The position numbers were made by a program, and so were the translations under genes. Of a DNA stretch of 64,000 nt, positions 3,651-21,687 are shown one piece after another. Location: NCBI RefSeq assembly GCF_027913215.1, contig NZ_CP115780.1:1-64000 (forward strand). The letters are read 5' to 3'. Each line of letters starts with the position of its first letter. The stretch's first letter is position 1. A model generated the notes under the pieces. It was not told the origin of the DNA, ran no database searches, and was given only the letters and a program-made list of their open reading frames with translations. The DNA is from Paracoccus aerodenitrificans (GTDB lineage: Bacteria > Pseudomonadota > Alphaproteobacteria > Rhodobacterales > Rhodobacteraceae).

Positions 3651-3678
3651 TTTCAACGCCGCGGTGCTCAGTTGGCAT

Positions 3679-3698
3679 GACTTAACAGCTGTTAAGTC
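3679..3698. other. parS-like palindrome 2, 20 bp and perfect
   Basis: GACTTAACAGCTGTTAAGTC is a perfect 20-bp palindrome sharing its core with the copy at 3635. The two sites are about 45 bp apart centre to centre. They are the most likely RepB-binding centromere. The site lies upstream of the start chosen for the next gene. Confidence 0.78.
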
Positions 3699-3807
3699 GC
3701 CTCTTGGCAACCATACGATCATCGAGAGGGAAAGGAGTGTTGGTTTGAGGGTGACGGGAAATGAGATCGGGAGAGTGGCTTCCGGCGCCCGTCGTGGAGA
3801 AGATCTG

Positions 3808-5439
3808 ATGACGAAAGCTGTCCGGAAAATCACCCTGTCCCCTTCGCGGGATATCCCTTTTGACAAGCTGGTCCTGAGCCAGTCCAACGTGCGGCGCATC
3901 AAGGCTGGCGTGTCTGTCGAGGAACTGGCCGAAGACATCGCCCGCCGCGGTCTGTTGCAGAGCCTGAGCGTGCGGCCCGTCTTGGCTGACGACGGCACCG
4001 AGACCGGCAAGTTCGAGATCCCGGTCGGTGGCCGTCGGTTCCAAGCATTGTCCCTGCTGGTGAAGCAGAAGTGTTTGGCAAAGACCCCGCCCATTCCTTG
4101 CATCGTGCGCGATGCTGCGTCCGACATCCTGGCCGAGGATGATTCCCTTGCAGAAAGCATGCATCGCGTCGCCCTGCACCCGCTCGACCAATTCCGCGCG
4201 TTTGTGGCGCTGAGGGACAAGGGCCAGAGCGATGCAGAGATTGCCGCCGCCTTCTTCGTGACGCCGCAGATCGTGAAGCAGCGCTTGAAACTCGCTTCCG
4301 TCGCCCCTGCCCTGCTTGAGGTCTATGCCGAGGATGGCATGACGCTGGAGCAGCTCATGGCCTTCACCGTGAACCCCGATCATGCGCGTCAGGTTCAGGT
4401 CTGGGATGTGATCCATTCATCCTGGAACAAGGAGCCATTCCAGATCCGGCGCATGCTGACCGAGACCTCGGTCCGGGCGTCTGACCGGCGCGCGGTCTTT
4501 GTGGGTGCTGAGGCCTACGAAGCGGCGGGCGGCACGATGTTGCATGACCTCTTTCAGGGCGATGACGGTGGCTGGCTCGAGGACCCTGCCCTGCTCGATC
4601 GGCTGGTGACGGAAAAACTCCAGGCCAAGGCTGAGACGGTTGCCGTTGAGGGCTGGAAGTGGATCGAGGTCGCGCTTGACCTGCCCTACGGCTACAGCCA
4701 CGGCCTGCGGTCCCTGTCAGGTGATCCGGCACCGATGACGGATGACGAAGGCGCGGCCCATGCCAAGCTGCTCGCCGAATACCGGGCGCTGGAAGAGGAA
4801 TACGCGGGTCAGGATGAAATCCCCGACGGGATCGACACGCGGCTTGGCGTGTTGGAAACGGAGATGGAAAAGATCGAGACCCGGCCGTTGATCTTCGACG
4901 CGGAGGAGATCGGGCGGGCAGGGGCGTTCGTCACGCTCGACCGCTACGGCGCGCTGGCCGTCTATCGCGGCTATGTGCGTCCAGAGGATGAGCCGGTTGA
5001 CGTGACAGCGGTCCAGGATGGTGCTGATCCTGCGGTGGCGGGGCAGGGGGATGATCGTGATCTCACCGATGGCTATGACAGTGCCGCTCATGCCGGAACC
5101 GTCATCATGTCGGGAGGCCAGCCGATTGGCGGCGATCTGCCGGAGGATGAGGATGACGGAGCGCTGAAGCCACTGCCCGAGCGGCTCGTAATCGAGTTGA
5201 CGGCACACCGGACGCTGGCGCTGCGTGAAGCGATCGGGCGCTCGCCCGACGTGGCGTTGATTCTGCTGCTGCTGAAGATTGTGACGGACACCTTCCGCAC
5301 TTCCTCTGCTTCGGGAAGCTGTCTCGAAGCCTCAGTGCGTCACATCTACATGCCGGCGCAGGCGAGCGATCTGAAGGACAGCGTGGTGGCAAAGCTGGTC
5401 GACGAGCGTCATGCGCCGGAACGATCTCGTGGCGCTTGA
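3808..5439 (+). CDS. ParB/Srx-domain plasmid protein, C-terminally broken
   Basis: This 543-residue protein belongs to the large ParB-like proteins of alphaproteobacterial plasmids, distinct from RepB. The ParB N-terminal fold is at about residues 12-105 (LVLSQSNVRR, SVEELAEDIARRGLLQSLSV, IPVGGRRFQAL). A helix-turn-helix follows (DAEIAAAFFVTPQIVKQRLK), and then a long acidic region. The ATG at 3808 has GGAGA upstream; an earlier in-frame ATG at 3664 would place the second parS inside the gene. A full-length paralogue of 660 residues lies at 19705. Compared with it, this copy stops after DERHAPERSRGA and lacks about 150 C-terminal residues. An acidic reading frame continues at once in frame +2, which indicates a frameshift or deletion. 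The exact function of the family is not known. Confidence 0.8.
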   Translation: MTKAVRKITLSPSRDIPFDKLVLSQSNVRRIKAGVSVEELAEDIARRGLLQSLSVRPVLADDGTETGKFEIPVGGRRFQALSLLVKQKCLAKTPPIPCIVRDAASDILAEDDSLAESMHRVALHPLDQFRAFVALRDKGQSDAEIAAAFFVTPQIVKQRLKLASVAPALLEVYAEDGMTLEQLMAFTVNPDHARQVQVWDVIHSSWNKEPFQIRRMLTETSVRASDRRAVFVGAEAYEAAGGTMLHDLFQGDDGGWLEDPALLDRLVTEKLQAKAETVAVEGWKWIEVALDLPYGYSHGLRSLSGDPAPMTDDEGAAHAKLLAEYRALEEEYAGQDEIPDGIDTRLGVLETEMEKIETRPLIFDAEEIGRAGAFVTLDRYGALAVYRGYVRPEDEPVDVTAVQDGADPAVAGQGDDRDLTDGYDSAAHAGTVIMSGGQPIGGDLPEDEDDGALKPLPERLVIELTAHRTLALREAIGRSPDVALILLLLKIVTDTFRTSSASGSCLEASVRHIYMPAQASDLKDSVVAKLVDERHAPERSRGA

Positions 5440-5725: not shown

Positions 5726-7093
5726 TCAAGGCCAATGCTCCCGATCTTTCACATGGGCATTTGGAGCATCCGTTGGCAATCTGACGGATGCCTGAAATCC
5801 AGAAGTTTCACCGGGACGTGGTGACTGGAGCAAGAGAGAGGTTTCGATCCGTTCTGCGATGGCTGAGACGATAGCGAGGCCAAGCCCGCTACCATCAGTT
5901 TTTGCATCTGCCCTCTCGAAGCGCCCTGTCAGGCGTTCGAGTGTTTGGGTTGCTACCGCGGGGCCCTCGTTCGCCACGATCAACTGCCCGTCGCTCGTGA
6001 GTGTAACCTCGACTGGGGCATTCTGCGCCCCGTGGCGTAGGGCGTTTTCCACCAGATTCCGGCACAGAATTCCCAATGCGTCGGGGTCGATATCAGACAA
6101 GACAGGCGTGTCCGGCAAGTTCAACATAAGGCGCCCGTTCTCTGTGCTGCGCGCAATATCTTCCACCACGACCCGAGTGATGGTTCTGACATCAGCGCTC
6201 TGGTCCATCCGAAGTCTACCGCCTTCCGCCCGCGCAAGCTGCAGGAGACGTTCGGACAGCCGAGCGAGACGCTTGAGCGTCGCCTCGATCTCGGCGGCGC
6301 GCGCGTCGATGGTCGGATCTTTGGTCTCTGACCGCAGTCGCTGCGCCTGGGCGATAGCGCCCGCCAATGGTGTCCTTAGTTCATGAGCCGCATTGGCTGC
6401 AAAACTTCGCTCAGCCTCGAACGCGTCGCGCAACCGAGCCAAAAGGCTGTTCAAGGTTGCAGCCAGCGGTCCGATTTCTGTCGGCAGGTCGGCCGCGGGT
6501 ACTTCTGACAGGTCGCGCACGCCGCGCGCTTCAAGCCGCGTACGGAACCGATGGAGAGGGGCGAGGCTAAAGCGCACAGCGAGAATAATCGACGCGAGCG
6601 CCAACGGCAGCACAACCAGCAGCGGCAGGCCGAGGCTCATCTGGATTTCCCGAGCAACCGAAGCGCGATGCGCCAACGGTTCGGCCACGGTGATGCTGAT
6701 CGTCCCCTGGAGCGCCGCGTCGCTGTAGAGGCGATGTGTGGCGTTCTGCCCAAATCCCGGACCGCCGTATGGAGGAAACACGGCAGGGTCCGCCGCATGG
6801 GATTGCAGCAAAATGCGTCCCTCGGCATCGCGTACGATGTAGGTGAAGAACTCGTCATGCTCCCGGATCGGCGCGAGGCGCTGCGTCACACCCTGATCTT
6901 CTTGCCCGACGATGTCGGTCACGGCCAGCGGCAGGATGCGCTCGGCGGTTTCGCGTAGGGCGCTGTCGAAGACCTCATCCATCTCGCCCCGAACGATCAC
7001 CGCGGTAACCGTGGCGGCGGCGAGCCAGAGGATCGTCAGCACAAGGCCGAGTGACAAGCCGAGCCGTACCTGAAGGCTGGATGGCCACATCAT
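5726..7093 (-). CDS. Sensor histidine kinase of the QseC/PmrB type
   Basis: This is a 455-residue membrane sensor kinase. Transmembrane segments are at about residues 8-35 ([24 protein letters not shown]) and 160-185, with a periplasmic sensor region between them. The H-box [14 protein letters not shown] holds the phospho-accepting His. The ATP-binding domain shows an N-box ([13 protein letters not shown]) and a G-box ([14 protein letters not shown]). The start ATGATG overlaps the stop of the response-regulator gene, so the two form one operon. The kinase is intact while its regulator carries an in-frame stop. The likely role is control of the divergent PepSY/ferric-reductase genes in response to metal or redox state, inferred from context. 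Confidence 0.88.
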
Positions 7094-7749
7094 GGCTTGC
7101 CCAGCCGGTAACCCATGCCGCGCTCGGTCTCGATGATGGCGCTCCCCAGTTTCTTGCGCAGGCGGCTCACGTGCACCTCGATGGTGTTGCTCTCGACTTC
7201 GGCGTCGAAAGCGTAGAGCTTCTCCTCCAACTGCGCCTTGGACAGGAGCTGCCCGGGACGCGCCAGGAAGGCCTCGAAGAGCGCCCATTCCCGCGCCGTC
7301 AGCGGCACATGTCTGCCATCCCGATGGACGCTGCGCGCGGCAAGGTCGATGTCGAGCGGTCCGTGGGTCAGGATCGGGTTGGGGTTGCCGCTGTAGCGCC
7401 GCGCGACCGATCCGATCCGTGCCGACAGTTCCGACAGGTCGAAGGGCTTCACAAGATAGTCGTCAGCGCCCGCATTGAGGCCTTCGATCCTATCGGACAC
7501 CTGGTCGAGCGCCGTCAGGATGATGACCGGCGTCACGTCTCCACGCGTCCTGAGGCCCTTGAGGAACCCGATACCACGTCCGTCTGGCAGCATGAGGTCG
7601 AGCAGGAGCAGGTCTTAAGAGGTTGCGCTCATCGCGTCTGCCGCCGCGTCTAGCCGCGTGACCCAGTCTACTGACTGGCCATCAGCTGCGATCTGGTCGC
7701 GCACGGCAGCGCCAAGAGTCGTGTCGTCCTCGATCAGCAATATGCGCAT
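7090..7749 (-). pseudogene. OmpR-family response regulator interrupted by an in-frame TAA
   Basis: Read through, the gene encodes a normal 219-residue OmpR-type regulator. The receiver starts MRILLIEDD, the phospho-acceptor Asp51 lies in [11 protein letters not shown], a Lys occurs in DDYLVKPF, and the C-terminal winged helix includes [11 protein letters not shown] and GYRLGKP. Codon 45 is TAA (7617-7615), directly before DLLLLD; TAT or TAC (Tyr) would be one base away. The frame is otherwise intact on both sides (207 nt, a multiple of three). The upstream piece is only 44 residues. A downstream ATG (7593) could give a fragment lacking the acidic pocket and the phosphorylation site. It is a recent nonsense mutation or a sequencing error. 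Confidence 0.85.
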
Positions 7750-7793: not shown

Positions 7794-7810
7794 CTGACAC
7801 GAAGCTGAAG
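7794..7810 (+). promoter_or_regulatory. Response-regulator box, copy 1 (PepSY gene side)
   Basis: CTGACACGAAGCTGAAG is a direct repeat of CTGA(C/A) half-sites spaced 11 bp start to start, as bound by tandem OmpR-type dimers. The box ends 85 bp before the ATG of the first PepSY gene. Confidence 0.6.
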
Positions 7811-7826
7811 CTTGTGGGTCGAGCCC

Positions 7827-7843
7827 CTTCAGGCTGCCGTCAG
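7827..7843 (-). promoter_or_regulatory. Response-regulator box, copy 2 (autoregulatory side)
   Basis: On the minus strand the sequence reads CTGACGGCAGCCTGAAG. It has the same half-sites and 11-bp spacing as copies 1 and 3. It ends 78 bp before the ATG of the response-regulator gene, so it suggests autoregulation. Confidence 0.6.
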
Positions 7844-7894: not shown

Positions 7895-8212
7895 ATGAAG
7901 AAGACATTGACAATTATCGGCTTTCTCGCGGTCTTTACGGCCGGCGCGGCGCTGGCTGACGACGATTGCTTCGTGCCGATGGCCGACTGGCAGCCGCGCG
8001 ATGCTGTTGCCATGCTGGCCGAGGAAAATGGTTGGACGGTGCGCCGGATCAAGATCGATGACGGCTGCTACGAGATCGACGGGAGGGATGCCGAGGGGCG
8101 TGCGATCGAGGTGACTGTCCACCCGGCCACGCTGGAGGTAATCGAGTTCGAATACGAGGACGACGAGGATGATCGCCGCGAGCGGGATCACGAGAGACGC
8201 GACGATGACTGA
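7895..8212 (+). CDS. Exported PepSY-domain protein 1
   Basis: This is a 105-residue secreted protein. The Sec signal peptide MKKTLTIIGFLAVFTAGAALA ends at about residue 21. A PepSY domain follows, with the conserved line WTVRRIKIDDGCYEIDGRD and VTVHPATLEVIEFE, and then an acidic/basic tail (DDEDDRRERDHERRDDD). A near-paralogue lies at 9737. PepSY proteins of this kind often accompany two-component sensors and membrane reductases and are thought to modulate sensing or electron transfer outside the cytoplasm. The ATG has AGGAG upstream (TAGGAGTGTGCCCC). The next gene begins inside the last codons (8-bp overlap). Confidence 0.85.
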   Translation: MKKTLTIIGFLAVFTAGAALADDDCFVPMADWQPRDAVAMLAEENGWTVRRIKIDDGCYEIDGRDAEGRAIEVTVHPATLEVIEFEYEDDEDDRRERDHERRDDD

Positions 8213-9554
8213 TGCAGCGCGTCGCGACGGTATTGTCCCGGTGCCGAGCCTGCCGCCACTCTCCCGGCTTTCCCTAAACTCTCCTCTAGCCCTGACGGGC
8301 CCGGTGCTGGTTGCGTTGCCATGCCTGCTGGCGGCTTTGCTCGGTTTCAACACCTATGCGACTTATGGTGCGGATGCCGCGCTCGGCATCGCCGTCGGGG
8401 CCGCGGCAGTTGTCGCGATGGCACAGACCCTGATCCTCGCCGCACGGCCGCCGCTGGTGGAGCCGTTGTTCGGCGGTCTCGATCGCATGTACCGGGTCCA
8501 CAAGTGGCTTGGTATTTCCGCAATGGTCCTGATGATCCTGCACCAGCAGATCGAGCCGGATTTCGAGCGTTTGGTGCGTGAAACCTCCCTTGGTGAACTT
8601 GGTGAAGAGGCGGGCGAACTTGCCTTCAACGCGCTTCTTGCCCTGGTTGCTGTCAGCTGGTTCCGGAGATTGCCCTTCACCCCACTGGAAATCCCCTATC
8701 AAATCTGGCGGTTCAGCCATCGTTTCATGGGGGCCCTTTTTGCAATCGTGGTCTTTCACCAGTTCTTCGTCGACCTGCCGACAGAGGTAGATCCATCGCT
8801 CTCGGTGCTTCTGAACACATTCGGCATCGCCGGAGTGATCGCGTGGATATTCACCGAGCTGGTCGCCCCGTACCTGCGGCGTAGAGAATTCACCGTCACA
8901 GAGATCAGCCAGACCAAGGACACCACCACGCTAACCCTCCGCCCCGAGGGGCGGGCCATGCGGTGGCGGCCGGGGCAATTCGCCTTCTTCCGCGCGCCAG
9001 AGGCAGGACTGTCCGAGCCGCACCCTTTCACGATTGCCAGCGCCCCGCGCCCTGACGGCACCCTGACGTTCTGCATCAGGGGGTTGGGTGGCTGGACACG
9101 AAGCCTGCCCGCCATCTTGCGGACCGGAACGCGCGTGCAGGTCGAAGGGCCATATGGACGGTTCAATTTCCGCAAGGGCGGTGCGCGCCAAATATGGCTT
9201 GCCGGCGGCATCGGTATCACGCCGTTCCTCGCCTGGGCGGAAAGCCTGACAGAGGCGGAGAGTCGCGACATTCACCTCATCTACTGCGTTCCGACACAAG
9301 AGGAGGCGATTGGCGTAGAGACGTTGCGCGCTGCGGCTGCCCGCAACCCGAGGTTCAGTTTCGAGGTGGTCGTTACGACGCGCGATGGCAGGCTCACGGC
9401 CGAGCGCCTGATTGGCGCGGTCCCTTTCGCGATCCGGCAAGCCGATCTGTGGTTCTGCGGCCCAACCGGTCTGAAGGACGGGATTCTCAAGGGCTTGAAA
9501 GCACAAGGCCAAACGCCTCGCCGTGTCCGCTTCGAGCAGTTCGAATTCACCTGA
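8205..9554 (+). CDS. Ferric-reductase-like transmembrane flavohaem oxidoreductase
   Basis: This 449-residue protein would carry electrons from NAD(P)H across the membrane. The N-terminal half (about residues 25-220) has six hydrophobic segments with conserved His residues typical of a ferric-reductase-like haem domain (YRVHKWLG, MILHQQI, RFSHRFMG, VFHQFF). The C-terminal half is a ferredoxin-NADP reductase module with an FAD-binding HPFTIASAP motif, an NAD-binding GGIGITPFLAW motif and FCGPTGLKD. The start ATG at 8205 overlaps the PepSY stop (ATGACTGATG), so it belongs to the PepSY operon. Substrate could be ferric iron or another extracytoplasmic acceptor; sequence alone does not decide. Confidence 0.87.
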   Translation: MTDAARRDGIVPVPSLPPLSRLSLNSPLALTGPVLVALPCLLAALLGFNTYATYGADAALGIAVGAAAVVAMAQTLILAARPPLVEPLFGGLDRMYRVHKWLGISAMVLMILHQQIEPDFERLVRETSLGELGEEAGELAFNALLALVAVSWFRRLPFTPLEIPYQIWRFSHRFMGALFAIVVFHQFFVDLPTEVDPSLSVLLNTFGIAGVIAWIFTELVAPYLRRREFTVTEISQTKDTTTLTLRPEGRAMRWRPGQFAFFRAPEAGLSEPHPFTIASAPRPDGTLTFCIRGLGGWTRSLPAILRTGTRVQVEGPYGRFNFRKGGARQIWLAGGIGITPFLAWAESLTEAESRDIHLIYCVPTQEEAIGVETLRAAAARNPRFSFEVVVTTRDGRLTAERLIGAVPFAIRQADLWFCGPTGLKDGILKGLKAQGQTPRRVRFEQFEFT

Positions 9555-9612
9555 ACGCGGGGCAGGGCGCATAGCCATGCCAGCCCTGTAGCCTGCGCTC
9601 GCATCTTTTTTT

Positions 9613-9641
9613 GGCTCCGCCCTCATCGGCGGGGCCATTTT
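9613..9641 (+). terminator. Possible intrinsic terminator after the reductase gene
   Basis: GGCTCCGCC and GGCGGGGCC form a 9-bp stem with one G-T pair around CTCATC, followed by ATTTTCC. It lies 60 bp after the stop of the reductase gene and just before the third response-regulator box. Confidence 0.5.
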
Positions 9642-9642
9642 C

Positions 9643-9659
9643 CTGACGGCAAGCTGAAG
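9643..9659 (+). promoter_or_regulatory. Response-regulator box, copy 3 (second PepSY operon)
   Basis: CTGACGGCAAGCTGAAG differs from copy 2 in only two positions and has the same 11-bp half-site spacing. It ends 78 bp before the ATG of the second PepSY gene, so the second operon should be under the same regulator. Confidence 0.6.
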
Positions 9660-9736
9660 CAGGAATCGCTGGGGCGTCAGGATGCCCTCAGGTCGGGGTG
9701 CCAGATTGGTCTCATCAAACGAAAGGACCCCTTGCC

Positions 9737-10117
9737 ATGAAAAAGACCCTGACCGCCCTTGCCCTGATCGCACTTTTGCCCGCCAGCGCTGCGCTGGCCG
9801 ACGACGATGATTGCAATGCGCCCCGTGACCAGTGGCAGCCGCGCGAGGCCGCCATGCAGATGGCCGAACAGAACGGTTGGACGGTGCGCGACTTCGAGAT
9901 CGACGACGGCTGCTACGAACTCGAAGGCCGAGACCAGGATGGCCGCGAGATCGAGGTGAAGCTCGATCCGGCGACGCTGCAGATCGTCGAGATGGACTAC
10001 GAGGATGATGACGACGACCGCGGTGGCGCCCGCAATCCCGCGCCCGCTGGAACGGTCGCTCCTCCGCAGAACGGCCTCTTCGGAAACGGCGCCCCTCCGC
10101 AGGTTCAGGTGAACTGA
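9737..10117 (+). CDS. Exported PepSY-domain protein 2
   Basis: This is a 126-residue secreted paralogue of the protein at 7895. The signal peptide MKKTLTALALIALLPASAALA is followed by an Asp-rich start, the PepSY signature WTVRDFEIDDGCYELEGRD and LDPATLQIVEMDYE, and a Pro/Gly-rich tail (about residues 100-126) that the other copy lacks. It starts a second operon with the DUF2271, PepSY-TM reductase and apbE genes. A purine-rich GAAAGGA lies upstream of the ATG. The conserved Cys in DDGCYE and the Cys near the N-terminus (DDCNAP) occur in both copies and could form a disulfide. Confidence 0.85.
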   Translation: MKKTLTALALIALLPASAALADDDDCNAPRDQWQPREAAMQMAEQNGWTVRDFEIDDGCYELEGRDQDGREIEVKLDPATLQIVEMDYEDDDDDRGGARNPAPAGTVAPPQNGLFGNGAPPQVQVN

Positions 10118-10152
10118 ACAGCTCCGAAGCACCCTGAACAAGGATCATTCCC

Positions 10153-10623
10153 ATGAAATCACTTCTCGCAACGCTCGCGCTGACCACCGCACTCACGCTT
10201 CCCGGCCTCGCTATGGCACGGCCCGTGACGCTCACAACCACCCTTAACAACTATGGTGGCGACGGCGCTTACCTCGCGCTTTACGTTACCGACGCCTCGG
10301 GCGCCTATGTCGGCAGTCTCTGGATGGCTGGTGGCAAGTCCAAGTACTACGAGCATCTGAGCGACTGGTACCGTGCCACGGGCGGCGATACCGCGCAGGT
10401 AAACGGTATCACCGGCGCCAGCGTCGGCGCGGGCCGCAGTCTCGAGATCACGCTCGATCTGGCCGACGCGCTGTTCGATACGGGCTACACGCTGCACATC
10501 GACGCGGCGGTCGAGGATATGCGCGATAGCCCGAACGAGGTGGCCGTGCCGCTGACGACGGCGGGCGCGGGCACGCCGGTGAGCGGGCGGCGCTACATCT
10601 CCAACTTCTCCTACGACATGTGA
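10153..10623 (+). CDS. DUF2271 protein, probable covalent FMN carrier
   Basis: This is a 156-residue exported protein. The Sec signal peptide MKSLLATLALTTALTLPGLAMA is followed by a beta-rich DUF2271 domain. It contains NGITGAS at residues 84-90, which fits the D/N-x-x-S/T-G-A-T/S flavinylation motif recognised by ApbE in NqrC and RnfG; Ser90 (codon 10420-10422) would be the FMN acceptor. DUF2271 proteins have been reported as flavinylation substrates. The neighbouring apbE and the PepSY-TM reductase support a role as an extracytoplasmic electron shuttle. Ser in place of the usual Thr is a variant. Ribosome-binding site AAGGA precedes the ATG. Confidence 0.83.
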   Translation: MKSLLATLALTTALTLPGLAMARPVTLTTTLNNYGGDGAYLALYVTDASGAYVGSLWMAGGKSKYYEHLSDWYRATGGDTAQVNGITGASVGAGRSLEITLDLADALFDTGYTLHIDAAVEDMRDSPNEVAVPLTTAGAGTPVSGRRYISNFSYDM

Positions 10624-10634
10624 GGGGCAGGGCC

Positions 10635-12842
10635 ATGATCCGTACACTCCATCGCTGGCCGGGTCTTCTGGCACTCGCGCTCGTCACGATCCTGAGCCTG
10701 AGCGGCGCTGCGCTCTCGGTCTTTCCGGCAGTCGAGCGCATCACCGCGCCGCAGGTGGAGACTGGCCTGACAGTCGCCACCCTCGCGGACCGCATCCAGG
10801 TCGTCTATCCGGGCGTCGAGCAGATCCGGCGGTCGCCCTCCGGTCGGATCACCGCCTATTGGTTCGATCAGGGCGCGCCTGGTGCTGCCGTGATCGACCC
10901 GGCGACGGGCGCGGGCGTTGCCTCGGCCGACCCGAACCAAGCCCTTCGCTGGCTCACCAACTTTCATCGCTCGCTCTTCCTCGGGGATGGCGGGCGCATC
11001 GCCATGGCCGCCGGGGCCGCAGCGATGCTGGTCCTCTCGCTCTCGGGTGCTGTGCTGGTCGCGCGGCGGGCGGGGGGATGGCGGCACTGGTTCGCGCCTC
11101 TGCGCGGACCGCTCGCGGGCCGGCTGCACGTCGAGATCGCCCGGATCGCCGTCATCGGCCTCGTTCTGTCCTCCACCACCGCCCTCTGGATGACAGCTTC
11201 CACCTTCGATCTTCTGCCGGACGGTGGCGTCCTGCCGGCTGATCCCACCGAAGTGAGCGGAGAGATTGGGTTCGCTCTCGATCAGATGGCCACGCTGCTG
11301 CAGACCCCCGTCGCCGAGCTGCGCGAACTGAGCTTTCCCTATCCCGGCGATGCGACGGACGTGTTCACACTGAAGACCGACCGGGGCACCGGCTATCTTG
11401 ACCAGGGAACCGGCGCGCTCATGGCATGGGCCGACCTGACCGGGTGGGAGCGCGTCTCGGAAACCATTTACATGCTGCACACGGGGCAGGGGGCCGCGAC
11501 GCTCGGCCTTGTGCTCGGGATGATGGCGCTCGGAGTGCCGGCGATGGGCGTGACCGGCGTCCTGATCTGGTTTGCCGGGCGGCGCGGGCGGCCGCGCATC
11601 CGCGGCAACCAGCCCGCGGGCCGTGCCGAGACGATCCTTCTTGTCGGCAGCGAGGGTGGCAGCACCTGGGGCTTCGCCGCGACCCTGCATGCCGCGCTGA
11701 CGGCAGCGGGGCAGGGCGTCCATGTTGGCCCGATGTCGGGCTTCGCGCCAGAGCGCTACGCCCGAGCCGAGCGCATCATCGTGCTCGCCGCGACCTATGG
11801 CGACGGGGCTGCGCCGGCCTCGGCGAAGGGCTTCCTCGACCGGTTGAACGCCCTCGACGGAGCGCCGGATATTCCCATGGCTGTGCTTGGTTTCGGAGAT
11901 CGGAGTTTTCCGGCCTATTGCGCCTTTGCCAAGGACGTTGCGGCAGCAGCGCAAGCGAAGGACTGGCCGGAGCTTCTGCCGCTTGACGCAATCGACCGCC
12001 AGTCCCCGCAGGATTTCGCGCGCTGGGGCCGCGCTCTTGGCGAGGCGCTTAGCATCTCTCTCGAGCTTTCTCACCAGCCCGTCTCGCCGCGCACCGAAAC
12101 ATTGACCCTCGTCTCGCGGCGCAACTACAGGGCCGAGATGCAGGCGGGGGCCGCGATCCTGCGCTTCGCCCTGCCGCGCGCGACGCTGTGGCAGCGGCTG
12201 ACCGGGGCGGGTTTCGCACGGTTTCAGGCGGGCGACCTGATCGGTGTCCTGCCGCAGGGCAGCGCCGTGCCACGTCTCTACTCGCTGGCCTCGGGTCGCC
12301 GCGACGGCTTCGTGGAGATCGTTGTGCGCAAGCATCCGGGCGGGCTGGCCTCGGGCCAGCTGACCGCCTTGGAGCCGGGCGCTAGGGTCACGGCCTTCCT
12401 GCGCCGCAATCCCGGCTTTCACGCCGACCGCGGTCGCACCCCGCTGATCCTGATCGGGGCGGGCACCGGCATCGGGCCGCTGGCGGGCTTCATCCGCGGC
12501 AATGCGCGGCACAGGCCCGTGCACCTGTTTTTCGGGATGCGGCATGCGGACAGCGATTTCTTCTATGGCGAAGAGATGCCCGGCTGGCAGGCTGAGGGGC
12601 GGTTGACCCGGCTTGTCACCGCCGTCTCGCGCGGCGCGCGGCGCAGTTATGTGCAGGACGCCTTGCGCGCCGACGCGGCGCAGGTGGCCCGGCTTATCTG
12701 CGACGGGGCGCGTGTGATGGTCTGCGGCGGGCGCGACATGGCCACGGGCGTGAGCGATGCGTTGGCCGAGATCCTCGCACCTGCCGGGCTTACGCCCGCA
12801 GTCCTAAAGGCAGAGGGGCGGTATGTCGAAGATGTCTACTGA
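10635..12842 (+). CDS. PepSY-TM / flavodoxin / ferredoxin-reductase fusion protein
   Basis: This 735-residue membrane protein can move electrons from NADPH to the periplasm. Residues 1-310 form a PepSY-associated transmembrane module with four membrane helices and the motif FHRSLFLGDGGR. A flavodoxin-like FMN domain follows at about 330-470 (ILLVGSEGGSTWGFA, AATYGDGAAPASAKGFLDRL). A CysJ-like reductase module runs from about 490 to the end, with FAD motif RLYSLAS, NADP motif GAGTGIGPLAGF, VMVCGGRDMATGV and C-terminal EGRYVEDVY. The ATG at 10635 is preceded by GAGGGGCAGGG. An apbE gene overlaps the end by 20 bp. The chain NADPH-FAD-FMN-membrane-DUF2271 is inferred. Confidence 0.86.
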   Translation: MIRTLHRWPGLLALALVTILSLSGAALSVFPAVERITAPQVETGLTVATLADRIQVVYPGVEQIRRSPSGRITAYWFDQGAPGAAVIDPATGAGVASADPNQALRWLTNFHRSLFLGDGGRIAMAAGAAAMLVLSLSGAVLVARRAGGWRHWFAPLRGPLAGRLHVEIARIAVIGLVLSSTTALWMTASTFDLLPDGGVLPADPTEVSGEIGFALDQMATLLQTPVAELRELSFPYPGDATDVFTLKTDRGTGYLDQGTGALMAWADLTGWERVSETIYMLHTGQGAATLGLVLGMMALGVPAMGVTGVLIWFAGRRGRPRIRGNQPAGRAETILLVGSEGGSTWGFAATLHAALTAAGQGVHVGPMSGFAPERYARAERIIVLAATYGDGAAPASAKGFLDRLNALDGAPDIPMAVLGFGDRSFPAYCAFAKDVAAAAQAKDWPELLPLDAIDRQSPQDFARWGRALGEALSISLELSHQPVSPRTETLTLVSRRNYRAEMQAGAAILRFALPRATLWQRLTGAGFARFQAGDLIGVLPQGSAVPRLYSLASGRRDGFVEIVVRKHPGGLASGQLTALEPGARVTAFLRRNPGFHADRGRTPLILIGAGTGIGPLAGFIRGNARHRPVHLFFGMRHADSDFFYGEEMPGWQAEGRLTRLVTAVSRGARRSYVQDALRADAAQVARLICDGARVMVCGGRDMATGVSDALAEILAPAGLTPAVLKAEGRYVEDVY

Positions 12843-13803
12843 GCGCGCGCGCATCGCCCTGAACGGCCCCACCATGGGCACGCGCTGGTCGGCGCTGTTC
12901 TTCGCGGATCGGGGCCGCGACACGGATGCAATCCGTGCCGCCCTTCAGGCGGCTGTCGACGAGGTGGACAAGCAGATGTCGACGTGGAACGCGGAGAGCG
13001 CGCTCATGCGGATCAATGCGGCGCCGGTGGACGATTGGGTGGTGGTGCCGGAGCAACTGCGGGCGGTCCTGCGCCTCGGGCTCGAGATCGGGCGCGCCTC
13101 GGGCGGGGCCTTCGATATCGGCATGGGCGATGCGGTGACGGCCTGGGGTTTCGGGCCCGGGGCCGCCGCGCCCGAGGGTATCCGCGCCGTGATGGACGCC
13201 CCCCGCCGCCCGGCGCAGGAGGTGCTGGAGATCGAGGGGATGCAGTTGCGCAAGACCGCGCCCATTGCGCTGGATTTGAACGGCATCGCCAAGGGCTATG
13301 GCGTCGACCGGCTCGCCGAGACCTTGCGCGATCATGGGATTGCCGACGCCCTTGTCGGCATCGACGGTGAGATGCGTGCCATGGGCCTGCGCCCCGATGG
13401 CGAGGCATGGATCATCGCGGTAGAAGCGCCGGACCCTGATCGCCGGACGCCGCATTCGGTTCTGGCGCTGCAGGACGCCGCCGTGGCGACCTCCGGTGAC
13501 TACCGCCATTGGGTCGAGGTTCAGGGGCGCCGCCTGTCGCATACCATGGATCCGAGACGTGGCGCGCCGCTGATCGCCTCGCCGGCCTCCGTCACCGTGG
13601 TGGCCCGCACCTGTGCCGAGGCCGATGCTTGGGCGACGGCGCTCATGGTGCTTGGTGCGGAGAGGGGTGCGGACCTCGCGAGACAACGTGGACTCGACGC
13701 CCTGTTTCTTCTGTGCGATGATGAAGGCAATGCAATGGGCGTGGGAGTCGGGCGTCTTTTTTCCGAAGAACCAGCGGCAATCGCCTCAGCCGGGGGAAGA
13801 TGA
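12823..13803 (+). CDS. apbE: ApbE, FAD:protein FMN transferase
   Basis: This 326-residue enzyme attaches FMN from FAD to a Thr or Ser of target proteins. Family motifs are clear: NGPTMGTRWSALF at the N-terminus, DLNGIAKGYGVDRLAE, GIDGEMRAMG, VATSGDYRHW, LSHTMDPRRGAP and EADAWATALMVLG (metal-binding). The partner is probably the DUF2271 protein in the same operon. Unusually there is no visible signal peptide or lipobox, although ApbE normally works outside the cytoplasm in Gram-negative bacteria. The start codon lies within the end of the reductase gene, and the stop overlaps the ATPase start (ATGA). Confidence 0.93.
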   Translation: MSKMSTERARIALNGPTMGTRWSALFFADRGRDTDAIRAALQAAVDEVDKQMSTWNAESALMRINAAPVDDWVVVPEQLRAVLRLGLEIGRASGGAFDIGMGDAVTAWGFGPGAAAPEGIRAVMDAPRRPAQEVLEIEGMQLRKTAPIALDLNGIAKGYGVDRLAETLRDHGIADALVGIDGEMRAMGLRPDGEAWIIAVEAPDPDRRTPHSVLALQDAAVATSGDYRHWVEVQGRRLSHTMDPRRGAPLIASPASVTVVARTCAEADAWATALMVLGAERGADLARQRGLDALFLLCDDEGNAMGVGVGRLFSEEPAAIASAGGR

Positions 13804-15716
13804 GCCGCATGGAACAGACCCGTACCGATCGCTTCAAGACCGCACTCCTGCTGATGGCCGCAACCGGGCTGATCGTGGGACTCGCATTCTACCTTGCGGG
13901 CCAACCAGAGGTTGCGAACCTGATCTGGATTGCAGGAGTTGTTCCCGCGCTGGCAGCGCTTGTGGTCGAAATCGTCCGCAGCATTGGGCGCGGCGAGGTG
14001 GGCCTCGATATCGTTGCCGCGCTGTCGATGTCGGCGGCGCTTGTCTTCGGCGAGACCTTGGCTGCGGCTGTCGTCGCAGTCATGTATTCTGGAGGCACTT
14101 TCCTCGAAGCCTTCGCTGAGGGCCGTGCACGTCGTTCGATGAAGGATCTTCTATCTCGCGTACCCCGGACCGCGACGCGGCACCGGAACGGCGGTCTTGA
14201 GGATGTGCCTCTCGAGGAGATCGCACCGGGCGATCGCCTGCTGATCCGGCAGGGCGATGTCGTTCCCGTGGACGGTTCGGTTACGTCCGACACCGCCTTC
14301 CTCGACACCGCGGCGCTGACCGGCGAATCCCTCCCAGTCCGGCTGGCGCGCGGGGCCGACGCCATGAGCGGATCGACCAACGCGGGCGAGGCCTTCGACC
14401 TGACGGCGACGCGCGAGGCCAAGGACAGCACCTATGCCGGGATCGTTCGCCTGGTCGAGGAAGCGCAGGCGTCCAAAGCGCCGATGTCCCGGCTGGCCGA
14501 CCGCTGGTCGCTGGGCTTTCTGGTCGTCACCGTCAGTATCGCCTTCGCGGCCTGGTGGTTCACAGGCGATCCGATCCGCGCGGTCGCCGTGCTGGTGGTC
14601 GCCACGCCCTGTCCGCTGATCCTTGCCGTGCCGGTTGCGCTGGTCGCGGGTCTCTCGCGTGCGGCGCATTTTGGCGTTTTGATCAAGGGCGCAGGGCCGC
14701 TCGAGACAATGGCGCGCATCCGTACGCTGATCCTCGACAAGACGGGGACGCTGACAGATGGCCGTCCGCAGATCATCTCGATCGACAGCCACGATGGCAT
14801 GAACGAGGACGACATCCTGCGCCTCGCGGCCGCGCTCGATCAGGCCTCCAAGCACCCTGTCGCGCAAGCGATCGTCACCGCCGCCAAGGCACAGGGCTTC
14901 ACACTGCCCGTTCCGACAGAAGTGGCTGAGATCCCGGGCGAAGGGGTCTTGGGTCGTGTGGAGGACCGCGAGGTGATCGTCGGGGGCGACGGCTTCGTGG
15001 CGTCCCGGGTCGGGCGGATGGTGGGCGATCACCCCGCCAAGGGCGCCGGATCGGTCCTTGTCGCAGTGGCAGTTGACGGTCACATGGCCGGGCACCTCGT
15101 CATGTCCGACCCGCTGCGCGAGGGAGCGGGTGCCATGCTGGACGGTCTGCGCCGCCAAGGGATCTCGCGTATCCTGCTGGCCACCGGCGACCGCGCGGAC
15201 GTGGCCGAGCGTGTGACGGAAGGGCTGGGCCTCGACGGGCTGCGGGCCGGTCTGACGCCGGATCAAAAGGTGTTGCTGGTGCTCTCTGAGCGTAAACACG
15301 GGCCGGTGATGATGGTGGGTGATGGTGTCAACGACGCGCCCGCCCTGGCCGCAGCCGATGTAGGCGTGGCAATGGGGGCACGGGGCGCCGCGGCCTCGGC
15401 CGAGGCCGCCGACGTGGTGCTGCTCGTCGACCGGATCGACCGGCTGGGGCCCGGCATCGAGATCGCGCGGGCTTCACGCCGGATCGCGGTCGAAAGCGTT
15501 GTCGCCGGGATCGGCCTGTCTGTCATGGGCATGATCGCGGCCGCTTTCGGCTACCTCACGCCGGTTCAGGGCGCGCTCCTGCAAGAAGTGATCGACGTTG
15601 CCGTGATCCTGAACGCCCTGCGCGCGCTGCGCATCGCGCCACAGGAGCCAGCTACGGGCAAACCCCAGGCGATCATTTCAGAGCAAGCTGACATCGTTCA
15701 AGGAGCCACGCCATGA
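13800..15716 (+). CDS. P1B-type heavy-metal-transporting ATPase with TPCP motif
   Basis: This is a 638-residue metal pump with all catalytic motifs: TGES (phosphatase), TPCPL in the metal-translocating helix, DKTGTLTDG (phosphorylated Asp), SKHPVAQAI (HP locus) and GDGVNDAPALAAADVG. There is no N-terminal CxxC metal-binding domain; the protein starts directly with membrane helices. The TPCP form of the translocation motif differs from the CPC of Cu/Zn/Cd pumps and is found in a less studied subgroup linked to Ni or Fe. The next gene encodes a VIT1/CCC1 iron/manganese transporter with a 4-bp overlap, which also points to Fe or Mn. Metal specificity is an inference. Confidence 0.88.
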   Translation: MSRMEQTRTDRFKTALLLMAATGLIVGLAFYLAGQPEVANLIWIAGVVPALAALVVEIVRSIGRGEVGLDIVAALSMSAALVFGETLAAAVVAVMYSGGTFLEAFAEGRARRSMKDLLSRVPRTATRHRNGGLEDVPLEEIAPGDRLLIRQGDVVPVDGSVTSDTAFLDTAALTGESLPVRLARGADAMSGSTNAGEAFDLTATREAKDSTYAGIVRLVEEAQASKAPMSRLADRWSLGFLVVTVSIAFAAWWFTGDPIRAVAVLVVATPCPLILAVPVALVAGLSRAAHFGVLIKGAGPLETMARIRTLILDKTGTLTDGRPQIISIDSHDGMNEDDILRLAAALDQASKHPVAQAIVTAAKAQGFTLPVPTEVAEIPGEGVLGRVEDREVIVGGDGFVASRVGRMVGDHPAKGAGSVLVAVAVDGHMAGHLVMSDPLREGAGAMLDGLRRQGISRILLATGDRADVAERVTEGLGLDGLRAGLTPDQKVLLVLSERKHGPVMMVGDGVNDAPALAAADVGVAMGARGAAASAEAADVVLLVDRIDRLGPGIEIARASRRIAVESVVAGIGLSVMGMIAAAFGYLTPVQGALLQEVIDVAVILNALRALRIAPQEPATGKPQAIISEQADIVQGATP

Positions 15717-16414
15717 GCCGTCTATCACATTCTGAAATCCATATGGTGCATCGCATCGGCTGGCTGCGGGCCGCCGTTCTCGGCGCCAACGATGGTCTTG
15801 TCTCGACCGCGAGCCTCGTCGTCGGCGTCGCCGCAGCCGGGTCCGGCAAGCCCGAGGTCATGATCGCCGGGCTGGCCGGGCTTATGGCTGGCGCGATGTC
15901 GATGGCGGCGGGGGAGTATGTCTCGGTCAGCTCGCAAACTGACGCCGAACAGGCGGACCTCGCCCGAGAGAGCCGTGAACTCGAGGAAACGCCCGAGGCC
16001 GAGCTCGAGGAACTAACCCGGATTTATGTTGAAAGGGGGCTGGACCGCGACCTGGCGGAAAAGGTTGCCGTGCAACTGACTGAACGTAACGCGCTCGGAT
16101 CGCATGCGCGCGACGAGCTCGGCATTTCGGAAACCGTTACCGCCCGCCCTGTCCAGGCGGCTCTGGTGTCCGCACTGACCTTCGCCGTTGGGGCGGTGCT
16201 GCCCCTGATCGTCGTGCTGCTGGTCTCGGAGGCGCAGATCGCTCCCCTGGTGGCGGGATCGACGATCCTTGGCCTTGCGGTTCTTGGCGGATTGGGCGCT
16301 TCGGCCGGCGGCGCAGGCGTCGTCCGTGGGGCCACGCGGGTCACGCTATGGGGAGCGCTTGCAATGGCGGCGACAGCCGGGGTCGGTGCGCTGTTCGGGG
16401 TCGCCGTAGGCTAG
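15713..16414 (+). CDS. VIT1/CCC1-family iron/manganese transporter
   Basis: This 233-residue membrane protein belongs to the vacuolar iron transporter family. Typical segments are HRIGWLRAAVLGANDGLVSTASLVVGVA in the first helix and GLMAGAMSMAAGEYVSVSSQ in the second. A Glu-rich cytoplasmic metal-binding region follows (EETPEAELEELTRIYVERGL), and then three more helices. Family members export Fe2+ or Mn2+ from the cytoplasm in exchange for protons. The start codon overlaps the ATPase stop, so it is the last gene of the redox island operon. Together with the reductases it suggests iron or manganese homeostasis. Confidence 0.9.
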   Translation: MSRLSHSEIHMVHRIGWLRAAVLGANDGLVSTASLVVGVAAAGSGKPEVMIAGLAGLMAGAMSMAAGEYVSVSSQTDAEQADLARESRELEETPEAELEELTRIYVERGLDRDLAEKVAVQLTERNALGSHARDELGISETVTARPVQAALVSALTFAVGAVLPLIVVLLVSEAQIAPLVAGSTILGLAVLGGLGASAGGAGVVRGATRVTLWGALAMAATAGVGALFGVAVG

Positions 16415-19704: not shown

Positions 19705-21687
19705 ATGACCACAAGTTTTGCCCCCCTCACCGTCGCTATCGGCGATCTCGTCCCGCATGCCGCCAATGTGCGCAGCAACGCGCCGGAAACCTATGACCCC
19801 GAGAACATCGCGCATCTGAAGGCCAGCATCGCTGTGCTGGGCCTCCTGCAGCCGCTCCTCGTCCAGAAGTTCGACGGCAAATACGCCGTGCTGGCCGGTG
19901 GCCGGCGCCATGCAGCCCTGAAGGAGCTGATCGCCGAAAATGCCAGCAAGGGGTTCACTGCGAAAACCAAGGTCGACTGTCGGCTTGTCCCTGACGACTG
20001 CGACGTCACCACTGCCCTGTCGCTCGCCGAGAACATCACCCAGGCGCCGATGAACGCCATCGACGAGTTCGAGGCTTTCGCCCGGATGATGGAAGTCGAC
20101 GGCCAGACGCCCGAGACGATCGCCAAGACCTTCGGCACCACGGTGGCGGCCGTGAAAGGCCGGTTGCGCTACGGTCTGATCCACCCCGAGATCCGCGCTG
20201 CGGCCCGGGCTAAGACCATCACGCTCGACACGATGAAGGCCTTTGCGGAGCATCCGAGCCAGGAGGTGCAGCGCGAGGTCTTCGAGGCGCTCACCAAGGA
20301 AGATAGCTACCTGCAGGCCTATACAGTCCGCCAGGCGCTCAAGTCCCGCGGCGTCCAGGTCAGCGACGATATCGGGGCCTTCGTGCGCGAGGACTATGAG
20401 GCCCGCGGCGGCGCCGTTGCGGCTGACCTTCTGGAAGAGCATTCTGTGCTCGAGGATGCGGCGCTGGTCGAGACCATCCTGCTTGAGAAGCTCGGTGCCG
20501 CCGCCGAAGAGGCCCGTATAAAGCTGGGCTTTGCCTGGGCCGATGCGATGGTGCGGTATGACTACGCGACCATGGCCGACTACGGCCGCGTCTATCCCGG
20601 CCCGATCGAGCCTGATGAGGCTGCGCAAAGGTGCGTGGATGAAATCACCGCCGAGCTTGAGAAATTGCAGCTCGAGATGGAGGATGAGGGGCTCGAGGAC
20701 GGTGCCTACAATGCCCTTTACGAGCGCGTGGACGCCTTGGAAGAGGAAGCCCGCGACCTGCAGGAGGCCTACAGCGCCGAGGACCTCGCGCGGTCTGGGG
20801 TGATCGCGTCCTGGTCGGCCGGTAAGGTCACACTCCATGTGGGTCTCGTCCGCCCGGAGGACACCGTGAAAGACGAGGGCGCGCGCGGCTCCTCAGCTAA
20901 CCCGACCGGGCAGGAGGCCCCGGACGACGGTGAAATCAGCTACCCGGCCTCGCTGGCCGAGGACCTCAAGACCGAGCGGGCCATGGCCCTCGGCGCCGCG
21001 ATGGCGCTGCATCCGGAGGCCACGCTCGATCTCACGCTCTTCAAGCTGGTCAGTGATGTTCTGGCCAGCGGAATGAGTGTCACGCAGGCAATCAAGATCG
21101 ATGCCCGCAAGGAATACCGCAGCCATGCCAAGATGGACGAGATCGACGAGATCTCGCTCGAGCAGGTGGCGGCGGCGCATGATGCGCTTGATCTGTCCTG
21201 GCTCGATGACGCCCGCGCGCCCGCCGATCAGTTCGCGGCGTTTCGCGCGCTGGAGGCAGGTGAAAAGGCCAAGCTCGTCGCCTATGCCACCGCCAGCACC
21301 ACGCAATCCTGCTTCGCGCGGGACCGCCAGCGCGACAGCCTGATGCATGCATTTGAGATCGAGATCATGCCCGACATTCGCGCCCACTGGACACCGAATG
21401 CGGCCCTCTTCAACCGCTTCAAGAAGGCCTGGCTCCTGAAGATCCTCGGCGAGGATCTGGGTCTCGCCCAGGAGGCTGTGACGCTGGCCTCGTCGAGCAA
21501 AAAAGAGATCGTCGCCTTCTGCGACAAGCTCTTTTCAGAGCCCTTCGCCACACTCACGGACGCGCAGCGCGCTGCCGTGGCTGCCTGGTGCCCGCCGATG
21601 ATGCAGACCGCCGGTATCGCCTTTGATGAGGCGGAGCCCACTGCGGAAGCCCCGGAGCCTGACAGCGAGGTCGCGCAAGCGGCCTGA
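19705..21687 (+). CDS. ParB/Srx-domain plasmid protein, full-length paralogue
   Basis: This 660-residue protein has the same design as the broken gene at 3808. The ParB N-terminal fold is at about residues 10-110 (LVPHAANVRSN, HLKASIAVLGLLQPLLV, LAGGRRHAALKEL). A helix-turn-helix lies near 135-160 (TPETIAKTFGTTVAAVKGRL). A long acidic middle follows, and then a C-terminal region of about 200 residues (for example LMHAFEIEIMPDIRAHWTP and LFNRFKKAWLLKILGEDLG). It is not next to a ParA gene, so it is probably not the partition protein. Some large ParB-like proteins act as nucleases or regulators; the role here is unknown. AAGGA precedes the ATG. Confidence 0.82.
   Translation: MTTSFAPLTVAIGDLVPHAANVRSNAPETYDPENIAHLKASIAVLGLLQPLLVQKFDGKYAVLAGGRRHAALKELIAENASKGFTAKTKVDCRLVPDDCDVTTALSLAENITQAPMNAIDEFEAFARMMEVDGQTPETIAKTFGTTVAAVKGRLRYGLIHPEIRAAARAKTITLDTMKAFAEHPSQEVQREVFEALTKEDSYLQAYTVRQALKSRGVQVSDDIGAFVREDYEARGGAVAADLLEEHSVLEDAALVETILLEKLGAAAEEARIKLGFAWADAMVRYDYATMADYGRVYPGPIEPDEAAQRCVDEITAELEKLQLEMEDEGLEDGAYNALYERVDALEEEARDLQEAYSAEDLARSGVIASWSAGKVTLHVGLVRPEDTVKDEGARGSSANPTGQEAPDDGEISYPASLAEDLKTERAMALGAAMALHPEATLDLTLFKLVSDVLASGMSVTQAIKIDARKEYRSHAKMDEIDEISLEQVAAAHDALDLSWLDDARAPADQFAAFRALEAGEKAKLVAYATASTTQSCFARDRQRDSLMHAFEIEIMPDIRAHWTPNAALFNRFKKAWLLKILGEDLGLAQEAVTLASSSKKEIVAFCDKLFSEPFATLTDAQRAAVAAWCPPMMQTAGIAFDEAEPTAEAPEPDSEVAQAA

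Follow-up and report, generated by a model that had tools for sequence, protein, structure and literature searches.

Flavinylation gene clusters that include iron transporters are common, and their purpose and the direction of metal movement have so far been guesses. Meheust et al. (2021; PMC8238504) report VIT1 in 153 MsrQ-like and 167 PepSY-like flavinylation clusters and interpret the link as assimilatory iron reduction. Here we describe an island in Paracoccus aerodenitrificans that joins such flavin genes to two metal transporters, an apparently dedicated two-component system and an acidic exported protein. It lies in the first 64,000 nucleotides (the window) of contig NZ_CP115780.1, which has 198,273 bases and is one of five contigs in a 3.56-Mb genome. 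The published systems share with it a clustered PepSY_TM protein with an NAD-binding domain, a DUF2271 protein with [S/T]GA[S/T], ApbE, an MsrQ-like protein and VIT1; they differ in that uptake is inferred for them and in that no operator or acidic tail protein is known to us from that paper (PMC8238504). An earlier reading of this DNA from its letters (the sequence-only reading) had taken the combination to be undescribed. This was too broad a claim, since the proximity of VIT to PepSY/MsrQ flavinylation genes is on record (PMC8238504). What we know from that paper does not extend to the P1B-5 ATPase, the regulator or the acidic tail protein. The terms P-type, ATPase, efflux and export do not occur in the paper's main text, and "two-component" appears in the reference list only. 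The text of PMC11334425 likewise contains no occurrence of ATPase. Literature searches on flavinylation, VIT1/iron efflux, DUF2271 and Rhodobacteraceae/roseobacter plasmids, covering open-licence papers without supplements, found among the papers listed no ATPase-containing flavin operon and no description of the regulator and its operators. The unit comprises the following features, assigned by a Pfam scan of its ten proteins (the eight genes from 7895 onwards plus regulator and kinase), with NCBIfam also used.

5726-7093, minus strand: histidine kinase with HAMP, HisKA and HATPase_c, QseC/PmrB-like; start as annotated on a near-identical plasmid (L120)
7090-7749, minus strand: OmpR-family response regulator, PmrA/QseB-like, with an in-frame stop at codon 45
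7794-7843: operator 1, predicted, CTGACACGAAGCTGA on the plus strand facing CTGACGGCAGCCTGA on the minus strand
7895-8212, plus strand: PepSY_2 protein a (Pfam), acidic C-terminal end, N-terminus signal-peptide-like by eye
8241-9554 (open frame from 8169), plus strand: MsrQ/ferric-reductase-like membrane flavocytochrome with FAD and NAD(P) domains (Pfam Ferric_reduct, FAD_binding_8, NAD_binding_1)
9643-9691: operator 2, predicted, architecture as operator 1
9737-10117, plus strand: PepSY_2 protein b (Pfam), acidic stretch and conserved C-terminal tail PAPAGTVAPPQNGLFGNGAPPQVQVN
10153-10623, plus strand: DUF2271 periplasmic protein, predicted ApbE substrate, NGITGAS at 10402-10422
10635-12842 (open frame from 10620), plus strand: fusion of PepSY_TM, Flavodoxin_1 and NAD_binding_1 (FAD/NADPH reductase; Pfam)
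12823-13803, plus strand: ApbE FAD:protein FMN transferase (Pfam, E 2.7e-78)
13800-15716, plus strand: P1B-5-type metal ATPase (E1-E2_ATPase/Hydrolase), TPCP membrane motif, without C-terminal hemerythrin domain
15713-16414, plus strand: VIT/CCC1-family divalent-metal transporter, 233 aa (Pfam VIT1, PF01988)

The sequence-only reading had named the last eight genes in this order and with these families, and Pfam bears out all of them; the flavinylation motif of the DUF2271 protein and the TPCP of the ATPase are both present. The overlaps of 20, 4 and 4 bp that it gave from the fusion to VIT are correct if every gene begins at its first ATG. The annotation of plasmid p2 of Paracoccus sp. SCSIO 75233 (NZ_CP115760, L120), which is 99.9% identical, places the starts of the fusion, ferric-reductase and ATPase genes further downstream, that of the ATPase by 9 bases, so that a 4-bp overlap becomes a 5-bp gap. 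The words "without gaps" in the sequence-only reading are not quite exact: between the ferric-reductase gene and the next PepSY gene lie 182 bp, which contain operator 2. The unit is also larger than the eight genes, since a response regulator and a histidine kinase, encoded divergently at 5726-7749 on the minus strand, are part of it. Two blocks of genes are flanked by this two-component system and by the two operators of like build, the first block consisting of PepSY-a and the ferric-reductase-like protein, the second of PepSY-b (the acidic tail protein), DUF2271, the fusion, ApbE, the ATPase and VIT. Because the operators split the island in this way, it may be transcribed as two units rather than one.

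We tentatively read the island, with somewhat less than even confidence, as a metal-stress unit that combines a sensor with an electron-transfer chain and with exporters for Fe(II)-class metals. The kinase would respond to a surplus of metal in the periplasm, Fe(II) being the likeliest, and its signal would turn on both blocks. Electrons from NADPH would pass in the fusion through FAD and FMN to haems in the PepSY membrane part and be handed to the FMN that ApbE is predicted to attach to DUF2271. This flavin protein would hold periplasmic iron as Fe(II) and the acidic tail protein would bind it, while the P1B-5 ATPase and VIT would pump Fe(II), possibly also Mn(II), Ni(II) or Co(II), from the cytoplasm into a reducing, buffered periplasm, from which the exported metal could leave instead of oxidising and precipitating. 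In this reading flavin electron transfer would be functionally coupled to the exporters. The "reduce-and-export" role put forward by the sequence-only reading may hold, with export implied by family membership. The island has the look of a ready-made metal-stress kit, present in many alphaproteobacteria and known here from sequence alone.

The island is mobile and conserved. Matches occur in 62 of 72,556 plasmid records, 46 of them covering 80% or more of the query at a single location, and 49 of the 62 are typed as conjugative; similar or near-identical islands are carried by plasmids of Pseudosulfitobacter, Sulfitobacter, Salipiger, Roseovarius and others. Carriage on conjugative plasmids makes the island a defined block that can be moved and assayed. 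Two sets of relatives were used: 80 loci that are the best of 469 confirmed relatives and are biased to close ones, and a family sample free of that bias, with 345 genomes from 344 genera (fusion threshold E 1e-100, neighbour range 6 kb). In the family sample, 71 genomes hold 77 fusion loci, the second piece of one split gene (G416) having been left out of 78 rows. The ATPase stands directly behind ApbE on the same strand at 19 of these 77 loci, and VIT is present too at 18 of the 19, so the transporters do co-occur with the flavin genes elsewhere, and the recurring gene order bears out the genetic tie to two transporters of Fe/Mn-type families that had been proposed. The 19 loci far exceed the roughly 0.1 ATPase-linked fusion loci expected within 6 kb by chance, a rough figure that assumes random positions and ignores shared ancestry; Fisher and Poisson values are likewise uncorrected for ancestry, and seven of the 19 ATPase loci, our own included, have ATPases at least 97% identical. 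When downstream open reading frames of 34 loci were clustered, the P1B ATPases formed the single large cluster (15 members), the others having two or three. A class sample gave matches in 4 of 289 genomes (our own and three from other families) and a phylum sample in 8 of 249 (four from other families, three of these from other classes). One of seven loci outside the family, L138, has VIT and an ATPase remnant, and another, L139, gave no ApbE match in the stretch read. Behind the island of Paracoccus sp. AK26 pAK1 lies a smaller similar theme, PepSY_2 with cytochrome b561 and a two-component pair (L106:13489-16179).

The transporters are optional cargo of the flavin unit. VIT occurs without the ATPase at nine further fusion loci, five times downstream and four times upstream, where it lies 3-4 kb away on the other strand, following the kinase. 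On a FastTree phylogeny of 98 fusion rows, from which five loci without a full fusion were omitted, ATPase state changes at least 12 times (48 present, 41 absent, 9 unknown) and VIT state at least 17 times (57, 31 and 10). Such turnover would agree with hitch-hiking, in which ATPase and VIT, an independent cassette for metal tolerance, once inserted behind ApbE and have a promoter but no function in common with it, as would the ATPase-VIT pairs that lack a fusion within 6 kb at 4 of 63 P1B-5 loci and on Paracoccus sp. AK26 pAK2. We consider this improbable: VIT has joined the unit at three different places (behind the ATPase, behind ApbE and behind the kinase), an SPC-type ATPase takes the place of the TPCP type at four loci, and one stand-alone pair, L121, came out of an island, since pieces of ApbE remain before it. 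The three VIT positions and the SPC-type replacements, like the gene content, the motifs and the conserved operators, speak for the metal-stress reading. Pairs without flavin genes are seen at L105:8989-11576 and L121:2963-5844, and two of the downstream VIT-only loci, L125 and L126, have broken ATPase pieces between ApbE and VIT.

The ATPase matches TIGR01525 above cut-off and is 53% identical to a 774-residue P1B protein of Sinorhizobium meliloti pSymA (L104), which has a PF01814 hemerythrin domain that the window ATPase lacks. In the alignment TPCPLILAVPVA is identical between the two and the QE..D...ILNALRAL helix near-identical; the window ATPase thus has both TPCP and the QE..D of the last helix, which we take, from this hemerythrin-bearing relative, to be P1B-5 motifs. 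To judge from its replicon, hemerythrin domain and TPCP, the pSymA protein is presumably Nia, a characterised P1B-5 pump whose substrates are Fe and Ni (PMC4932525, PMC7762939). The two motifs and the identity align the window ATPase with Nia (PMC4932525, PMC9388753), from which it differs in having no hemerythrin domain and in standing in an operon with flavin genes. The C-terminal hemerythrin-like domain occurs in only some P1B-5 members (PMC9388753), and one review places Nia among the P1B4 pumps (PMC7762939). On rhizobial plasmids this pump class has another setting, the P1B-5-like ATPase genes (L107:4884-6746, L104:4950-7274) being neighboured by genes for universal stress proteins and for a further P-type ATPase. 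The VIT protein aligns to EgVIT1 (6iu3) with an E value of 2.6e-18. Seven of the nine positions that we take to be EgVIT1 metal ligands, numbered by hand, are kept (D43, M80, E102, E105, E113, E116 and E153), E72 being replaced by Gly and M149 by His. MbfA, the membrane-bound ferritin of alphaproteobacteria, has a VIT1-like membrane domain as well (PMC7762939), whereas Pfam finds in the window VIT the VIT1 domain alone, without an N-terminal ferritin-like domain.

By family membership, the two pumps probably export Fe(II)-class metal. The main rival has the same chain reducing Fe(III) or Fe(III)-chelates for Fe(II) import, with VIT assimilatory and the ATPase an overflow valve. It agrees with the published interpretation of VIT1-containing flavinylation clusters, and in Shewanella and Caulobacter Fur represses PepSY-like clusters (PMC8238504). 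ATPases of this P-type class are established exporters, and an ATP-driven exporter in the operon argues against a pure uptake role; VIT retains most EgVIT1 ligands, control here is probably exerted by a two-component system with its own operators, and the Pfam scan of the ten unit proteins revealed neither a TonB receptor nor a Feo protein. Reductive uptake seems to us rather unlikely.

At four loci (L054, L059, L068 and L086) an SPC-type ATPase lies 46-342 bp behind ApbE in place of the TPCP type; three of them have HEGGT in the last helix, the frame of L054 being cut. SPC with HEGGT is, as we understand it, the P1B-4 signature. The P1B-4 pumps include the known iron exporters PfeT, FrvA and CtpD (PMC7762939). 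On the contig that carries the island, a second VIT stands beside a divergent SPC/HEGGT ATPase of P1B-4 type (L118:7291-7992, minus strand, and 8148-10202, plus strand; contig C1 near 155 kb), with an HlyD-type gene and a transposase close by. A unit that handles Ni, Co, Mn or Zn, its flavin chain giving a generally reducing periplasm, would also fit pumps of these families. VIT/CCC1 proteins also carry Mn. Ni is a substrate of Nia too, and those of P1B-4 pumps are Co, Ni or Zn (PMC4932525). We regard a metal other than iron as very improbable all the same, as iron would best suit a reducing chain. A link to ferrosomes was considered too. The ATPase of fez clusters, FezB, found with FezA and FezC, is of the P1B-6 class, while that of the island is P1B-5-like, and the link was set aside because the ATPase aligned with P1B-5, in a comparison that included no Fez sequence. 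What the two systems have in common is a membrane cytochrome beside an iron-type ATPase (PMC11334425).

Among the electron-transfer proteins, the fusion has PepSY_TM (PF03929, E 4.3e-30) with ApbE adjacent, the arrangement by which PepSY-like flavinylation systems are recognised (PMC8238504). All 79 DUF2271 matches from the 80 loci have [ND]GITGAS, which contains the substrate motif [S/T]GA[S/T], and DUF2271 is predicted to be the ApbE substrate that carries FMN. A fold search with the whole fusion model covered residues 331-740, and a sequence search with the PepSY_TM part gave weak matches (E about 0.01) to chains named as NAD-binding or iron-sulfur oxidoreductases; 7ABW, a PepSY crystal structure named in PMC11334425, is not among the matches listed for these searches, which excludes nothing. 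The MsrQ/ferric-reductase-like flavocytochrome keeps its four histidines (111, 125, 184 and 197 of the longer frame) in all 39 aligned rows, window included, and is optional, many loci having no match to it. Its occurrence in part of the loci would suit an oxidative-stress unit that sends electrons to peroxide, quinones or oxidised periplasmic proteins while Fe(II) export limits Fenton chemistry, and P-type iron exporters elsewhere respond to Fur and/or PerR (PMC7762939). We hold this to be quite improbable, because the flavocytochrome has no match in many transporter-bearing loci and because the ten unit proteins include, by Pfam, no MsrP partner for the MsrQ-like protein and no peroxidase or thioredoxin-like partner.

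Before DUF2271 lies the gene of a small acidic protein, exported to judge by a start that looks like a signal peptide by eye; in the window the protein ends in PAPAGTVAPPQNGLFGNGAPPQVQVN. This tail is constant in 84 of 89 loci, following a PepSY-type sequence in 35 (a label given by sequence pattern, not a Pfam call) and an Asp-rich region in 49; acidic runs reach 24. It is missing in four loci, and one more is cut by a contig end. The pattern used to find the tail requires P-x-N-G-L-F, so only the remaining columns are independent evidence of its constancy. A database search with the tail region returned 615 proteins at E of 0.001 or below, and the 120 matches listed either have PepSY_2, in a few cases with PepSY as well, or are without any Pfam domain. 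The occurrence of one tail on two unlike bodies points to docking with an invariant partner, and the acidity of the body hints that it binds hard cations, iron for instance. The protein thereby offers a new handle on the contacts of the flavin protein.

The predicted operator motif CTGA-N7-CTGA occurs at 11 places in the window, including 7794 (+), 7843 (-), 9643 (+) and 9691 (-). Upstream of PepSY-a the plus site is found in 71 of 76 loci, the minus site in 71 and either in 75, compared with a background of 0.045 per stretch in the loci as a whole. In 73 of 76 loci the interval from PepSY-a to PepSY-b/DUF2271 contains both sites of operator 2, the search having covered 170 bp where the second PepSY gene was found and otherwise the entire gap to DUF2271. 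The facing site is the reverse complement, and 165 of 167 pairs no more than 200 bp apart (94 loci) are spaced by 48 or 49 bp; 100 distinct sequences of 48-bp spacing have a common consensus. A narrower pattern, CTGACNNNAAGCTGAMG, hits eight places in the genome of P. aerodenitrificans at up to one mismatch: the two operators, one other exact match and five with one mismatch. That other match (C5:405064) was tried as a further regulon member and sits within an HSP20 gene, so it was taken as chance. We infer from position and conservation that the regulator binds the predicted operators. Their 11-bp direct-repeat geometry is, we believe, that of the known BqsRS, PmrAB and FirRS operators, and the operator sequence of these iron-sensing systems is presumably different. 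Recognisable operators make the inducing signal directly testable. A more specific proposal, possible and in our view doubtful, is that in a mobile system one dedicated regulator turns on periplasmic flavin reduction powered by NADPH, an exported Asp-rich metal-binding protein whose fixed C-terminal tail serves for docking, and exchangeable exporters of Fe(II)-class metal, through the facing CTGA-N7-CTGA operators, which would couple redox-metal export to keeping the metal reduced outside the cytoplasm. In two same-genus genomes from another class, where the stretch read contained nothing that matched this regulator, a single CTGA-N7-CTGA lies about 90 bp upstream of a core of DUF2271, fusion and ApbE (L140:9362, minus strand; L141:6507, plus strand).

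The best NCBIfam match of the response regulator is PmrA. Its gene (7090-7749) has the in-frame stop at 7615-7617 on the minus strand, as does that of SCSIO 75233 p2 (NZ_CP115760); none of the orthologues from 75 other loci (at least 60% identity) has it, 74 being full length and one cut, in a set from which the 38% identical non-orthologue of L108 was excluded. The closest other homologue in the same genome is also 38% identical, and no second close one was found there. The kinase is matched over more than half of the query in 73 of the 80 loci, and periplasmic RETAE directly follows the first membrane helix in the window and in 59 of the 73. An OmpR-type regulator is also a feature of BqsRS, PmrAB and FirRS, and a basic-ExxE just after the first membrane helix of the kinase may be another; BqsS has an Fe(II)-binding ExxE at the matching position (PMC12666569). 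RETAE as an iron-sensing feature is suggestive only.

Several observations weigh against the metal-stress reading, the two weightiest being that no phenotype of the unit is known to us and that the majority of fusion loci in the family sample have no transporter close by. Neither transporter lies within 6 kb at 49 of the 77 fusion loci (contig ends may hide some), from which it follows that the electron chain is useful without them, and 44 of 63 P1B-5 loci are distant from a fusion. For six of the seven loci outside the family, the stretch read, in two cases a short contig, yielded neither a P1B-5 nor a VIT match. Tests for correlated ATPase and VIT presence on the tree had two and eight usable pairs and were uninformative. 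The operator was not found before the five stand-alone ATPase-VIT pairs examined. With its regulator gene interrupted, P. aerodenitrificans may have lost control of the island. ExxE is not retained in every relative of the kinase: it is kept in 60 of 73 (three rows judged by eye) with other residues elsewhere, so that the iron-sensor-like RExxE is not universal. Finally, the published interpretation of the VIT link is iron uptake (PMC8238504).

The island sits on a plasmid backbone, where two ParB-like frames (ParB_N) flank it at 3664-5439, the match here being slightly below the Pfam cut-off, and at 19705-21687.

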